From: Alternaria dauci | Taxonomy: Eukaryota > Ascomycota > Dothideomycetes > Pleosporales > Pleosporaceae | Reading direction: 5' to 3' | DNA: 64,000 nt | Assembly: GCF_042100115.1 (NCBI RefSeq) | Contig: NC_091272.1 | Coordinates: 1,798,001-1,862,000, forward strand | Shown here: positions 11,247-50,662 of the stretch, one piece after another | How positions within the stretch are numbered: position 1 is the stretch's first letter | How the letters are laid out: each line of letters begins with the position of its first letter | The notes under the pieces: model-generated | What the model was told of the DNA's origin: nothing | Database searches by the model: none | The model's input: the letters and a program-made list of their open reading frames with translations, nothing else | Made by a program: the position numbers and the translations under genes

Positions 11247-12910
11247 ATGCCCCACGCCACGCTCACACGCGAGTCGGTCGCTTCGCACAACACGCCAGAA
11301 GATCTCTGGTGCATCATCGACCACAAAGTCTACGATCTCAGCGATTTCGTCGACGCCCACCCTGGCGGCTCCGTCGTGCTCGAGCAGGTAGCGGGTCAAG
11401 ATGCGACAACGGCCTTCTACAATCTACACAGACAGGAGGTCTTGGACAAGTACCAGGAGCTATGCATCGGCACCATCGAGGGCGAGAAGTCAGAGGTGAT
11501 TGTCGGAAAGCCTGGCGATCTGAGCCCAGTACCATACGCAGAGCCTTTGTGGTTGCGACCGCAATTCAAGAGCCCATACTTCAAGGAGAGCCACCGGGCA
11601 CTACAGAGGGAAATCCGTAAGTTCGTTGACACACACATCACACCCGAGGCGCAACGGAAGGAGAAGGACGGTACATATATCAGCCAAGAACTGATCGACA
11701 AAATGGCCGAGAACGGCATGCTGGCCATGCGTCTCGGGGCTGGAAAGCATCTCCATGGCAAGACCCTCATGGGGGTTGTCAAGGGTGAGGAATTCGACTA
11801 CCTCCATGATCTCGTTCAGGCACAGGAAGGCGTGCGCGCAAACGCCCGTGGATTCCAAGACGGAAACATGGCTGGCATGACCATCAGCTTGACAGCCGTC
11901 TTGCAGTGGATGCCCGAATCTGAGGTGAAGACGCGCGTGGTAAACGAGGTCTTGACTGGCAAGAAGAAGATGTGTCTAGCCATCACCGAGGCTTTTGCCG
12001 GATCTGACGTCGCTGGCATCAGGACCACTGCAACATTGACTCCAGACGGCAAGCATTACATTGTGCGAGGCACCAAAAAGTGGATCACCAATGGAATGTT
12101 CTGCGACTACTTCGTCACAGGCTGCAGAACCGAGAAGGGATTCTCTGTCCTGCTCATCGAACGCGATGAAGCTGTAGAGACTAAGCTCATCAAGACGAGC
12201 TACTCCACAACGGCGGGTACTGCATTCGTCGAGTTCAACAACGCCAAGGTACCAGTGAGCCATCTTCTGGGTGAAGAGCACAAGGGCTTTATTGTGATTA
12301 TGAGTAACTTTAACCACGAGGTAAGCCCGGGCCCTACAAAGAGTCTGTGAGACATGTACTGACTTTGTATCTTCACTTCTGCAGCGCTTCATGATGGCTT
12401 GTGCTGTTATCCGACAATGCCGCACCGTTGTCGAGGAGTGCTTGAAGTGGTGCAACCAGCGAATTGTCTTTGGCAAGAAGCTCATCGAGCAACCAGCTAT
12501 CCGTCAGAAGTGAGTGTTGCATCGAGAGATGGTTTCTTGTCCTACTGCCTTGCTCGTACTTACACTACCCCAGGCTTGCCAAGATGATCTCACACGTCGA
12601 AGCCAACCAAGCATGGCTAGAATCCATCGCCTACCAGATGACGCACATGTCGTACGCGCAACAATCGAAGCTGCTCGGCGGACCCATTGGTCTGCTCAAG
12701 TCGTTTGCGACTCGCTCAGCACACGAGATTGCCGACGAGGCCGTCAACATCTTCGGAGGTCGCGGACTCACCCAAAGTGGAATGGGTCGTGTGATCGAAG
12801 AGTTCCATCGCACATACAAGTTTGATGCTATTCTCGGGGGTACCGAGGAGATTTTGGGCGACTTGGGTGTACGACAAGCAATGAAGGATTTCCCAAAGAG
12901 CATGTTGTAA
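11247..12910 (+). CDS. cytochrome b5-acyl-CoA dehydrogenase fusion protein
   Basis: Flavoenzyme with an N-terminal haem domain, 511 aa. Exons are 11247-12320, 12385-12509 and 12574-12910. Residues 1-80 form a cytochrome b5 domain with the haem motif HPGG at 38-41 and a second candidate haem ligand at His61. From about residue 100 the acyl-CoA dehydrogenase fold follows: LAITEAFAGSDVAGIRTTA (FAD/substrate region), KKWITNGMFCDYF, then in the C-terminal domain RIVFGKKLIEQPAIRQK and IFGGRGLTQSGMGR, and the ILGGTEEILGD motif. The architecture is known from fungi; a peroxisomal or other fatty acyl-CoA oxidation role is likely, but the substrate is unknown. The C terminus (KSML) is a possible weak peroxisomal signal. 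The first intron (12321-12384) belongs to the repeated intron family described separately. The ATG at 11247 is preferred over one 60 bases upstream because the b5 domain begins right after it. Confidence 0.9.
12321..12384 (+). repeat. introner-like element, copy A (intron 1 of the acyl-CoA dehydrogenase gene)
   Basis: A 64-bp GT-AG intron. Its core at 12344-12363 is TCTGTGAGACATGTACTGAC, 17 of 20 matches to the consensus CATGTGAGACATATACTGAC, and the following TTTGTA also matches copy C. The 5' part (GGGCCCT) matches copy D. Length is identical to copies B, C and D. Confidence 0.8.
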
Positions 12911-47259: not shown

Positions 47260-50200
47260 ATGAGGTTCTTCCATCTTTTTGCTGTCGCGATCTCGCTATT
47301 CTTTGGCGTGTTGGCTACCGACAATGGCCTTCAAACGGACGTCGAATGGGATAATGGGTCGCTCATGGTTAATGGCAAGCGCGTAATGATTATGAGTGGA
47401 GAATTCCGTACGTTGATGAGATGGAATGCACAGATCCTACACGAAAGATATGCTAACCCTTGCGTGTGTGCTTTTCAGACTACGCTCGTCTCCCTGTTCC
47501 AGAACTATGGCTCGACGTGTTCCAGAAGTTCAAGGCCAATGGCATGAACGCTGTCTCAATCTACTTCTTCTGGTCATACCATTCAGCGTCGAAAGGCGTG
47601 TACGATTTCGCGACGCCTGGAAAGGACATTCAGCGCCTGTTTGACATGGCCAAAGAAGCCGGCCTTTACGTGATTGCACGGCCAGGGCCGTACTGCAACG
47701 CCGAGACCAACGGTGGTGGCTTCGCACTTTGGACCAGCGACGGGAGTGGTGGCAAGTACCGCACATCAGATGAGACATATCGGCAAGCATGGTCGGAATG
47801 GATTGCTGAAGTTGGCACAATCATTGCGCAGAACCAGATCACCAACGGTGGACCAGTCATCCTAGCCCAAGTCGAAAACGAACTCCAGCAAACTCGCTAC
47901 GAAGCCGACAACACGTTGGTCATCTACATGGAGCAACTGAAGACCGCCTTCAAAGACGCAGGCATCATCGTACCTTTGTCACACAACGAGAAGGGCTTTA
48001 GATCGAAGAGTTGGTCCACTGATTACAACAATGTCGGTGGTGCGATCAACGTTTACGGTCTGGACAGCTACCCCGGTGGCATGAGCTGCACGAATCTCGA
48101 TACTGGATTCAACTTGCCGAGGACCTACTACCAGTGGTTCCAGGAGGTCTCCCCCACTCAACCTGAATATCTCCCCGAGTTTGAAGTAAGTTGAACAAAC
48201 GAAATATACACGAGACACACACTAATTTTCTGTTTTCACTTCTCTAGGGAGGATGGTTCCAGCCATGGGGTGGTTACTTCTTCGATCAGTGCTTAGCTGA
48301 ACAGAGCCCTGAATTCGCGGATGTCTTCTACAAAGGACTGATTGGACAACGAGCTAGTCTTTTGAACCTGTACATGGCGTACGGAGGTACAAACTGGGGA
48401 CATAGGTTAGTTGGGACTGCACGAAACGCATTTGAGACATACACTGACTTCGTACCTCTACCTTTACAGTGCCGCTCCCGTACGTAACTGCCATTTGCGA
48501 ACTACATGTGAGACATATACTGACTTTGTACTCCTGTATCTAGGTAGTGTACACCTCCTACGACTACGACGCACCACTACGCGAGACCCGAGAGGTACGC
48601 GACAAATTCAAGCAGTACAAGCTTCTCGCCCTCTTCACTCGTGTTAGCAAGGGTCTTCATAACACCTTTATGGAAAACAACGGCACCGCAAATGCAGTCG
48701 ACAGTTCAGCTATCTGGACCTGGCAACTCAAGAACCGCGATACAGAGAGCAGATTCTATCTCGCCGAAAACAACAACACACGCACCCGTGCCGTGACTGA
48801 CTTTTCGATGACGGTCAAGACATCTGAAGGCGATGTCAAGATTTCGAGCTTACAGCTTGCTGGTCGACAAAGTCGATGGGTGGTCACAGATTACTCTGTG
48901 GGTAAAGAGACACTACTTTACTCGTCGGCTGAGATCGCGACCTATGGCTTGTTCGATCGACCTGTCATCGTCTTCTACACACGCGAAGGACAGACGGGAG
49001 AATTCGCGTTCAAATCGCAGAACAACCTGACCTTCAAAACGTACGGCGTAGAGTCGGACATTGCAAGCGCGCCAGCGAATAGCACATACTCAAGCTTCTC
49101 TTACACCCAGAGCAAGGGTGCAACGGTGGTCGAGTTCTCAAACGGCGTGCTTGCTTACCTGCTCGATATACCAACTGCCTATACCTTTTTTGCGCCACCA
49201 ACGACTGAAGATCCCAACGTCACTCCCGAGCACCAGATCTTTGTGCAAGGACCATATCTGGTTCGCTCGGCTAGCATATCGGGCGACAAAGTTTCTGTTG
49301 TTGGCGACAATGCGAATGCGACGACCATTGAGGTATACGCTGGCTCTGGTGTGAATACCATATCCTGGAATGGAAAGGAGCTCGCTACAACAAAGACGCC
49401 CTACGGCTCCCTGACTGCCGCAATCAATGGTACCAAGGACCGCAAAATCACTCTTCCGGAGCTTTCCAACTTCAAAGCGGCTGGATCTTCGCCCGAGATA
49501 GAACCCTCATACGACGACAGCAATTGGGTAGTCGCCAACAAGAGCACCACGTTAAGCCCTGTGAAGCCCCTCACTCTTCCTGTACTCTTCAGCAGCGACT
49601 ACAAGTACTATACTGGGGCCAAGATCTACCGCGGGTACTTCTCAGGCAAATCTGCAACATCTCTCAATATCACAGTTCAGGGTGGTGTGGCTGCAGGTAA
49701 GACGGGCCCTTGTACGGATTGCATGTGAGACTCATACTGACGTTTACATGATCACATTAGGATGGAACGCATGGTTGAACGGCAAGTCGATTGGCTACCA
49801 TCCCGGTAACGCGTCGCAGACTTCGACGACAGCATTGCTGTCTTTCAAGAACATCACATTGAAGGACGAAGGCAATGTGTTGACAGTAGCGACGGACTAT
49901 ACCGGCCACGACCAGACGTCCACAGGCCCAGCAGGCGCAGAGAACCCTCGTGGTATACTCGGTGCACAGCTCCTCAGCGGCAACAACACCAAGCTATCCT
50001 TTGACCAATGGAAGATACAAGGTAACGCGGGCGGAGAGCGTAACATCGACCCTGTTAGTAACTGTCCTTTACGAACACGCATGTGAAACATATACTGACC
50101 TGGTACAACGATGTTTAGGTTCGCGGCCCCATGAACGAAGGCGGTCTCTACGGTGAACGTCTTGGATGGCATCTTCCCGGTTTCGATACCTCCTCCTGGG

Positions 50201-50662
50201 AAGATGCTAGCCCCACCACTGACGGCGTCCAAGGCGCCGCCATCGGCTGGTTCACAACGACCTTTTCTCTTTCTGTTGATTCCGACCTCGACGTCCCTCT
50301 CGGCATTGAAGTCGGTGCACCGAAAGGTACCGTTGCCCGGATGCTGCTTTTCATGAACGGGTATCAGTATGGCAAATACGTTCCGCACATTGGACCGCAG
50401 GTATGTCATGGCTGTACGGAATGCATGTGAGACATAGACTGACCTTGCTTTATAGACTCGTTTCCCTATTCCTCCTGGTATTCTCAACACGAATGGCGAG
50501 AACGTTTTGAGTGTGGTGATGTGGGCGCAGACCGAGGCTGGTGCGAAGTTGGATACGCTGAAGTTGATTGAGTATGCTAGATATGAGAGTGGCTTCGCGT
50601 TTGCGAACATTGATGGAAAGGCGTTGCAGAGTGGGTGGGAGGATAGGAGTCAGTATGCGTAG
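47260..50662 (+). CDS. secreted beta-galactosidase (GH35)
   Basis: Releases terminal galactose from galactans or arabinogalactan. Eight exons: 47260-47407, 47479-48185, 48248-48405, 48470-48479, 48544-49696, 49761-50053, 50119-50400 and 50456-50662 (985 aa). A signal peptide covers about residues 1-19. The GH35 barrel shows VNGKRVMIMSGEF-HYARLPVP, GLYVIARPGPYCNAETNGGG, AQVENE (acid/base Glu184) and LPEFEGGWFQPWGG (nucleophile probably Glu283), then YMAYGGTNWGH. Later beta-rich and jelly-roll domains are present (GWNAWLNGKSIGYHPGN; FMNGYQYGKYVPHIGPQ). Length is normal for fungal large beta-galactosidases. Exon 4 is only 10 nt. Five introns (48406-48469, 48480-48543, 49697-49760, 50054-50118, 50401-50455) are copies of one repeated element. 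Confidence 0.95.
48406..48469 (+). repeat. introner-like element, copy B (intron 3 of the GH35 gene)
   Basis: 64-bp GT-AG intron. The core at 48429-48448 is CATTTGAGACATACACTGAC, 18 of 20 matches to the family consensus. It lies 10 nt from copy C. Confidence 0.88.
48480..48543 (+). repeat. introner-like element, copy C (intron 4 of the GH35 gene)
   Basis: 64-bp GT-AG intron. The core at 48505-48524 is CATGTGAGACATATACTGAC, identical to the consensus, followed by TTTGTAC as in copy A (TTTGTA). Confidence 0.9.
49697..49760 (+). repeat. introner-like element, copy D (intron 5 of the GH35 gene)
   Basis: 64-bp GT-AG intron. The core at 49722-49741 is CATGTGAGACTCATACTGAC, 18 of 20 matches. The 5' part shares GGGCCCT with copy A and TGTACGGA with copy F. 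Confidence 0.88.
50054..50118 (+). repeat. introner-like element, copy E (intron 6 of the GH35 gene)
   Basis: 65-bp GT-AG intron. The core at 50080-50099 is CATGTGAAACATATACTGAC, 19 of 20 matches, followed by CTGGTAC. The 5' part (GTAACTG, then CGAAC) matches copy C. Confidence 0.88.
50401..50455 (+). repeat. introner-like element, copy F (intron 7 of the GH35 gene)
   Basis: 55-bp GT-AG intron. The core at 50424-50443 is CATGTGAGACATAGACTGAC, 19 of 20 matches. It is shorter than its relatives because the segment after the branch site is reduced. Confidence 0.87.

Follow-up and report, generated by a model that had tools for sequence, protein, structure and literature searches.

Five introns of an Alternaria GH35 beta-galactosidase gene as probable separate insertions of a multi-copy introner family

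Five of the seven introns of a GH35 beta-galactosidase gene in Alternaria dauci are most probably copies of a multi-copy Alternaria introner family with several subfamilies, which would have entered the gene by separate insertions, the gene itself being among those that were hit repeatedly; from the sequence we put the probability of this reading at roughly 85%. The gene lies in a stretch of 64,000 nucleotides (nt) of contig NC_091272.1 (positions 1,798,001 to 1,862,000, forward strand), which we call the window. The origin of new spliceosomal introns is an old open question, with fungal introners among the few live cases, and this gene, whose introns are mostly introners (5/7), is a compact example.

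Introns of the GH35 gene

Once all seven introns are removed, the spliced frame of the gene comprises 985 codons with a single terminal stop, and a premature stop appears if any one of the seven is retained. Pfam domains PF01301, PF10435, PF13363 and PF13364 (catalytic and partner domains) scored above cut-off in the protein, which matches PDB 1tg7 over residues 24-956 (E 1.2e-174). The closest database proteins are those of Alternaria panax (93%), Alternaria sp. (92%) and A. ethzedia (91%), in line with the Dothideomycetes to which an earlier reading of the window's letters (the original prediction) had pointed. Aligned GH35 orthologues are 80-94% identical, a shorter A. alternata model reaching 94% over aligned columns, and the alignment continues across the intron junctions. 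The original prediction held that five introns are copies of one element sharing a 20-nt core; the gene and its introns are as follows.

47260..50662, + strand: GH35 beta-galactosidase gene, ATG to stop, seven introns, 985 amino acids after splicing
47408..47478, + strand: intron 1, ordinary, 71 nt, without the core
48186..48247, + strand: intron 2, 62 nt, at best a faint family remnant (profile match at 48199-48224 only, E 4.1, not significant)
48406..48469, + strand: introner copy B, 64 nt, closest to subfamily S2 (core at 48429; profile E 4.4e-14)
48470..48479, + strand: 10-nt coding micro-exon between copies B and C (residues AAP in 7/8 aligned orthologues)
48480..48543, + strand: introner copy C, 64 nt, closest to S3a (core at 48505, 20/20; profile E 2.1e-13)
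49697..49760, + strand: introner copy D, 64 nt, nearest S1 (core at 49722; profile E 1.1e-8)
50054..50118, + strand: introner copy E, 65 nt, closest to S3b (core at 50080; profile E 4.1e-9)
50401..50455, + strand: introner copy F, 55 nt, with a short 3' part, nearest S1 (core at 50424; profile E 9.8e-11)

All five introns were recovered where they had been placed, with lengths of 64, 64, 64, 65 and 55 nt, core matches of 18, 20, 18, 19 and 19 of 20 for copies B-F and GT...AG ends throughout, and intron 1 indeed lacks the core. No match of at least 16/20 arose in 20 Markov-random 64-kb strings (one strand each), in which matches of 15/20 occurred at 0.4 per string. The description of the five as a single element holds at the level of the introner family but not of the subfamily, as they fall to S2, S3a, S1, S3b and S1; the 5' part of the short copy F looks S2-like by eye despite S1 being its nearest subfamily. 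Intron 2 could be a strongly decayed introner copy.

Three GH35 paralogues in the same genome (36-44% identical) are intronless at all five copy positions, where 15/15 comparisons align with the spliced protein, free of stops and with no more than a single extra residue up to ten columns from a junction. Because none of the three carries an intron at any of these positions, intron gain at the five sites would be the favoured interpretation.

A family of introns across the genome

The core was found within 3 mismatches at 221 places in the 34.9-Mb genome, compared with 2 for the reversed pattern, and three further patterns extending beyond the core were found at 175, 130 and 122 places, with 0 in controls. 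The family occupies at least 226 places in the genome, assembled from six lists of matches, one of which (a pattern list of about 100 rows) contributed 19 rows judged mostly absent from the others; 104 of the 226 places fell within the loci read, and 40 further stretches were added. Among 159 introns chosen by splice signals and frame restoration from 109 sources, core matches were bimodal, with 89 introns at 12 or fewer, none at 13 and 70 at 14 or more; these 159, like a set of 212 candidate introns, were drawn from copy-bearing loci and the window and are not a whole-genome intron sample. Upstream of the CTRAC branch site, 86 ordinary introns carry 0-0.10 bit per position, except for 0.25 at -1, whereas the introner elements carry 0.56-1.81 bit. 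The conserved bases upstream of the branch site therefore need more than CTGAC to explain them, as the original prediction had argued, and its assignment of the five introns to introner-like elements is borne out by the presence of similar introns in unrelated genes genome-wide, with edges at the splice sites.

The family has at least three subfamilies, S1 (61 nt), S2 (64 nt) and S3a/S3b (64/65 nt), which differ in the 5' part and the tail and share a centre of the form TGTACGAA-CTG(or ATG)-core-TTCGTA. Copies are 52-75 nt long, with a median of 64 for elements vs 57 for other introns. Similarity among copies extends along the intron and ends at the splice sites: two typed consensus introns gave 40 and 41 matches (among about 40 scored of 59 and 54 candidates), of which 9/40 and 27/41 covered the query completely (GT through AG, 81-94% identity) and the remainder ended short at one or both ends. 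In 108 copies, the exon flanks carry approximately 0 bits at -12..-2 and +2..+12, with 0.2 at -1 and 0.13 at +1, and there was no sign of preference for the proto-splice site AG/G (3/108).

Boundaries of the 108 copies used an open frame as one criterion, while those of a second set of 140 copies were drawn by splice signals alone (hits with E >0.01 were unused, and 16 were dropped for having no acceptor or branch site, before removal of duplicate loci). After splicing, the frame was open over 120 nt on each side in 104/140 copies, compared with 55 and 52 when the acceptor was moved by 1 or 2 nt and 18 when the copy was left unspliced. The joined flanks of the 140 copies were open in sense only in 77 cases, on both strands in 27, in antisense only in 6 and on neither strand in 30. 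Given these spliced-frame and strand counts, most copies sit in sense inside genes; antisense and intergenic copies were not searched for as such.

A further 137 frame-restoring introns held no clear second repeated family: of the 2944 pairs compared, the best reached 0.75, and a few more exceeded 0.71, the highest value among 2000 shuffled pairs. One intron scored as ordinary (locus L003, at 2127) resembles a decayed S1 copy by eye, a likeness to be expected if copies fade into ordinary introns.

Boundaries and probable route of insertion

Each copy would be a spliceosomal intron complete in itself, with a 5' and a 3' splice site and a branch site of its own, the edges of the element being the splice sites. 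The most likely route would run through RNA, with an excised intron RNA placed into an intron-free gene position. This RNA could be spliced in reverse into a transcript that then undergoes reverse transcription and recombination, or it could be captured at a DNA break. Such an insertion would leave no target-site duplication (TSD), and the inserted copy would then drift like any intron and lose its likeness to the others. The GH35 gene, as one of a set of repeatedly hit genes, would have received five such insertions from several subfamilies.

A TSD was looked for in the 108 copies, in which exon-exon duplications were not above shuffles: those of 2, 3, 4, 5 and 6 nt numbered 3, 2, 0, 1 and 0, vs 4.8, 2.0, 0.4, 0.2 and 0.0 after shuffling. 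This result bears on the strongest competing account, which we consider unlikely, namely that the same family moved as a small DNA transposon carrying splice sites, resembling a miniature inverted-repeat transposable element (MITE), as proposed for most algal introners. While a self-complementary consensus with an inner 8-bp inverted repeat (TGTACGAA/TTCGTACA) would suit a transposon, as would intron ends matching exons over 3-4 nt slightly more often than in shuffles, the lack of excess exon-exon duplications, the end of similarity at GT and AG, and the strand of neighbouring copies (34 same-strand pairs vs 1 opposite-strand pair within 2 kb, among the at least 226 places) would not. Furthermore, neither TSD nor terminal inverted repeat (TIR) is reported for ascomycete introners in the accessible parts of Gozashti et al. 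(PMC9860276).

Several points nonetheless weigh against insertion of spliceosomal introns by way of RNA. The inverted repeats TGTACGAA/TTCGTACA of the consensus would be possible in a DNA element too. Matches between the intron head and the 3' exon are slightly above shuffles (3 nt, 13 vs 9.1; 4 nt, 2 vs 0.6), as are those between the 5' exon and the intron tail (3 nt, 6 vs 4.3; 4 nt, 4 vs 1.2), and such short matches may be boundary ambiguity or the trace of a duplication. Most copies are diverged, so TSDs could have decayed. Of the 140 copies, 36 have no open spliced sense frame over 120 nt; some of these may lie outside genes or in antisense. Finally, gain at each GH35 site is judged from distant paralogues (36-44% identical), the splicing of the copies is predicted, and the RNA route is one that we infer.

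Stable predicted secondary structure is expected of Dothideomycete introner-like elements. Much of the subfamily consensus is complementary to itself: the typed S1 consensus forms a rod from the second base to the last but one, and that of S3a a rod from the sixth base. The fraction of shuffles folding as well as the consensus was 0.026 for S1, 0.012 for S3a, 0.168 for S2 and 0.088 for S3b, the case being less clear for the last two, and 19, 6 and 7 of 200 shuffles folded as well as three hand-made consensus introns. Real copies, by contrast, fold no better than shuffles (mean z -0.09), and the stable hairpins for which RNA folding had been proposed as a check are not seen in them. The near-terminal complementarity of the S1 and S3 consensus was not preserved either, the paired arms not being kept together in copies.

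Covariation gave the same picture, with 74.4% pairing in the ancestral stem across 48 copies vs 75.3% in shuffles. Swapping 3' halves within subfamilies left pairing undiminished (p_high 0.41, 0.995, 0.996 and 0.51), RNAalifold predicted no pairs, and folding energy showed no relation to closeness to consensus (Spearman -0.04). We found no evidence that copies maintain a structure, and the pairing in copies is what independent decay of both arms gives. If the rod was important, it mattered in source elements, not in resident introns.

Probable repeated insertion into the same genes

Uniform placement of the copies would give approximately 1.5 pairs within 2 kb of each strand type, far fewer than the same-strand pairs counted above. 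The excess persists without the GH35 gene, which supplies 10 of the 34 pairs, leaving 24 same-strand and 1 opposite-strand pair where 1.4 are expected. Because just one pair is on opposite strands, the clustering is a gene-level and not a regional effect. By a rough estimate, insertion confined to genes explains part of the excess, about twofold, far short of the whole. Although the GH35 gene is the largest of 21 clusters among the places listed, it is not unique, since a class II fructose-bisphosphate aldolase gene (identified by Pfam; locus L104, G000:C1:808483-811546, about 1378-2250) carries four copies with 17/20 core matches each and a fifth, decayed copy (profile E 0.028). This aldolase is regarded as a strongly expressed gene.

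Five copies in one gene, together with strong clustering in other genes too, could suggest that the GH35 gene took up a single copy, which then multiplied there, and the original prediction had proposed local bursts or gene-internal spreading. Kinship among the copies speaks strongly against this, and we regard it as very improbable. Taking as within-gene pairs those at the same locus, on the same strand and within 2.1 kb, plus the GH35 copies, mean identity was 0.674 (29 pairs) vs 0.701 when permuted (p for higher 0.987), a mean that is biased downward by weak copies having been found mainly beside strong ones. When only stronger copies were used, the within-gene mean was still not higher (p_high 0.863, 0.957 and 0.948 over 20, 14 and 8 pairs). 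None of the 34 clustered copies was most similar to a copy in its own gene (0.42 would be expected by chance), and copies in the same gene belong to different subfamilies. As the clustering is real and kinship within genes is no higher than random, we conclude that preferred genes received separate insertions.

A more far-reaching account is tentative, and we hold it to be doubtful as a whole: introner RNA would choose genes and not sites, so that a few genes (GH35, aldolase and others) would be struck repeatedly, over a long period, by copies unrelated to each other, some as close together as 10-11 nt; most introns there would be introners, with micro-exons arising between them; and the mobile form would be a rod-like excised intron paired with itself end to end. 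Telling clustering in genes apart from spreading within a gene shifts attention to what makes a gene a repeated target, with transcript level, breaks and RNA-DNA hybrids to be considered.

Age of the copies

Subfamily medians of identity to consensus are 81-84% (16-19% off), and differences from consensus comprise 637 transitions and 380 transversions. Across all pairs of copies, median identity was 0.703 and the 99th percentile 83.1%, with 0.969 for the best pair. Based on the medians to consensus and between pairs, the family is mostly old with a few younger members. That best pair, identical at 62/64 positions (96.9%) and set in unrelated flanks (L079, G000:C4:2026079-2026142; L039, G000:C1:2153379-2153442), hints at comparatively recent movement. 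The phrase "recently multiplied", applied to these introns in the original prediction, could fit a few copies at most and is overstated for subfamilies so far from their consensus.

Comparison with known introners

Introner-like elements of Mycosphaerellaceae were reportedly described by van der Burgt et al. in 2012. In the accessible parts of Collemare et al. 2015 (PMC4457414), four genes are said to carry two elements each, one gene is suggested to possess features attractive to them, and elements are described as degenerating into ordinary introns, with low identity in Dothistroma septosporum; copies are 99% identical in Fulvia fulva and 98% in Zymoseptoria tritici, and the elements are called long. 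The likeness to the present family, as far as these descriptions go, lies in similar complete introns in unrelated genes of Dothideomycetes. However, those elements are called long and are 98-99% identical in F. fulva and Z. tritici, whereas the present copies measure 52-75 nt and, beyond the best pair at 96.9%, are mostly far more diverged.

A closer counterpart is found in A. alternata, for which the accessible text of Gozashti et al. 2022 (PMC9860276) gives a 64-bp example of introner family 1 (1639687-1639750 of LPVP01000001.1) and describes ascomycete introner families without TSD or TIR, with insertion described as direct. The two families share the genus, the 64-bp size and the lack of a clear TSD, a comparison made by description, and that part of the source makes no mention of independent insertions recurring in the same genes. 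The present family is very probably the published A. alternata family or a sister of it. The same text reports introners to be biased to lowly expressed genes in most species; a strongly expressed aldolase host would sit oddly with this trend, although one gene proves nothing.

Sister stwintrons and cropped introns of Hypoxylaceae (PMC12403724, accessible parts) likewise insert seamlessly without TSD, and their near-terminal inverted repeats could make the excised RNA a rod. There, however, the elements are twin introns, one nested in the other, and exact 10-nt repeats lie near the ends of some, in contrast to the single introns described here, in which self-complementarity is confined to the consensus. 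Intron families of this kind were already known; the contribution here is to tell two ideas apart, clustering at the gene level being real and spreading inside a gene finding no support. Among the results listed by searches of open-licence PMC papers, we found no report of a genome-wide quantification of repeated unrelated insertions into the same genes.

Micro-exons and a further copy in the window

Because the AAP residues are present in seven of the eight aligned orthologues, the 10-nt stretch between copies B and C appears to be a real exon. They are missing only from the A. alternata model (P0008), which jumps straight from the residue that precedes intron 2 to the one that follows copy C. 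The jump is a hint, though no proof, that A. alternata shares the acceptor and that the gene predictor was misled by the small exons; micro-exons between introners may spoil gene models. The spacing of merely 10 nt could also be taken to mean that copy B and copy C make up a single nested twin intron (stwintron), which we judge highly improbable, as the intervening nucleotides encode these shared residues, donor, branch site and acceptor are present in both copies, and neither copy is nested in a splice element of the other. Weaker still, to the point of being negligible, is the notion that the core is simply the general branch-site context of this fungus, since the core does include CTGAC but the elements are alike well beyond it and the 86 ordinary introns are unconserved upstream of CTRAC beyond their weak -1 preference, contrary to what was named at the outset as one of the findings that would overturn the original prediction.

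A second case of a micro-exon was seen in locus L058 (G000:C3:2231062-2234126), where two copies lie 11 nt apart at 1430-1565 and a third at about 1798, in a gene that looks like a C2H2 zinc-finger gene by eye. The window itself holds one further member of the family in another gene.

12321..12384, + strand: sixth introner copy in the window, 64 nt, frame-restoring (core 17/20 at 12344; profile E 1.1e-6)

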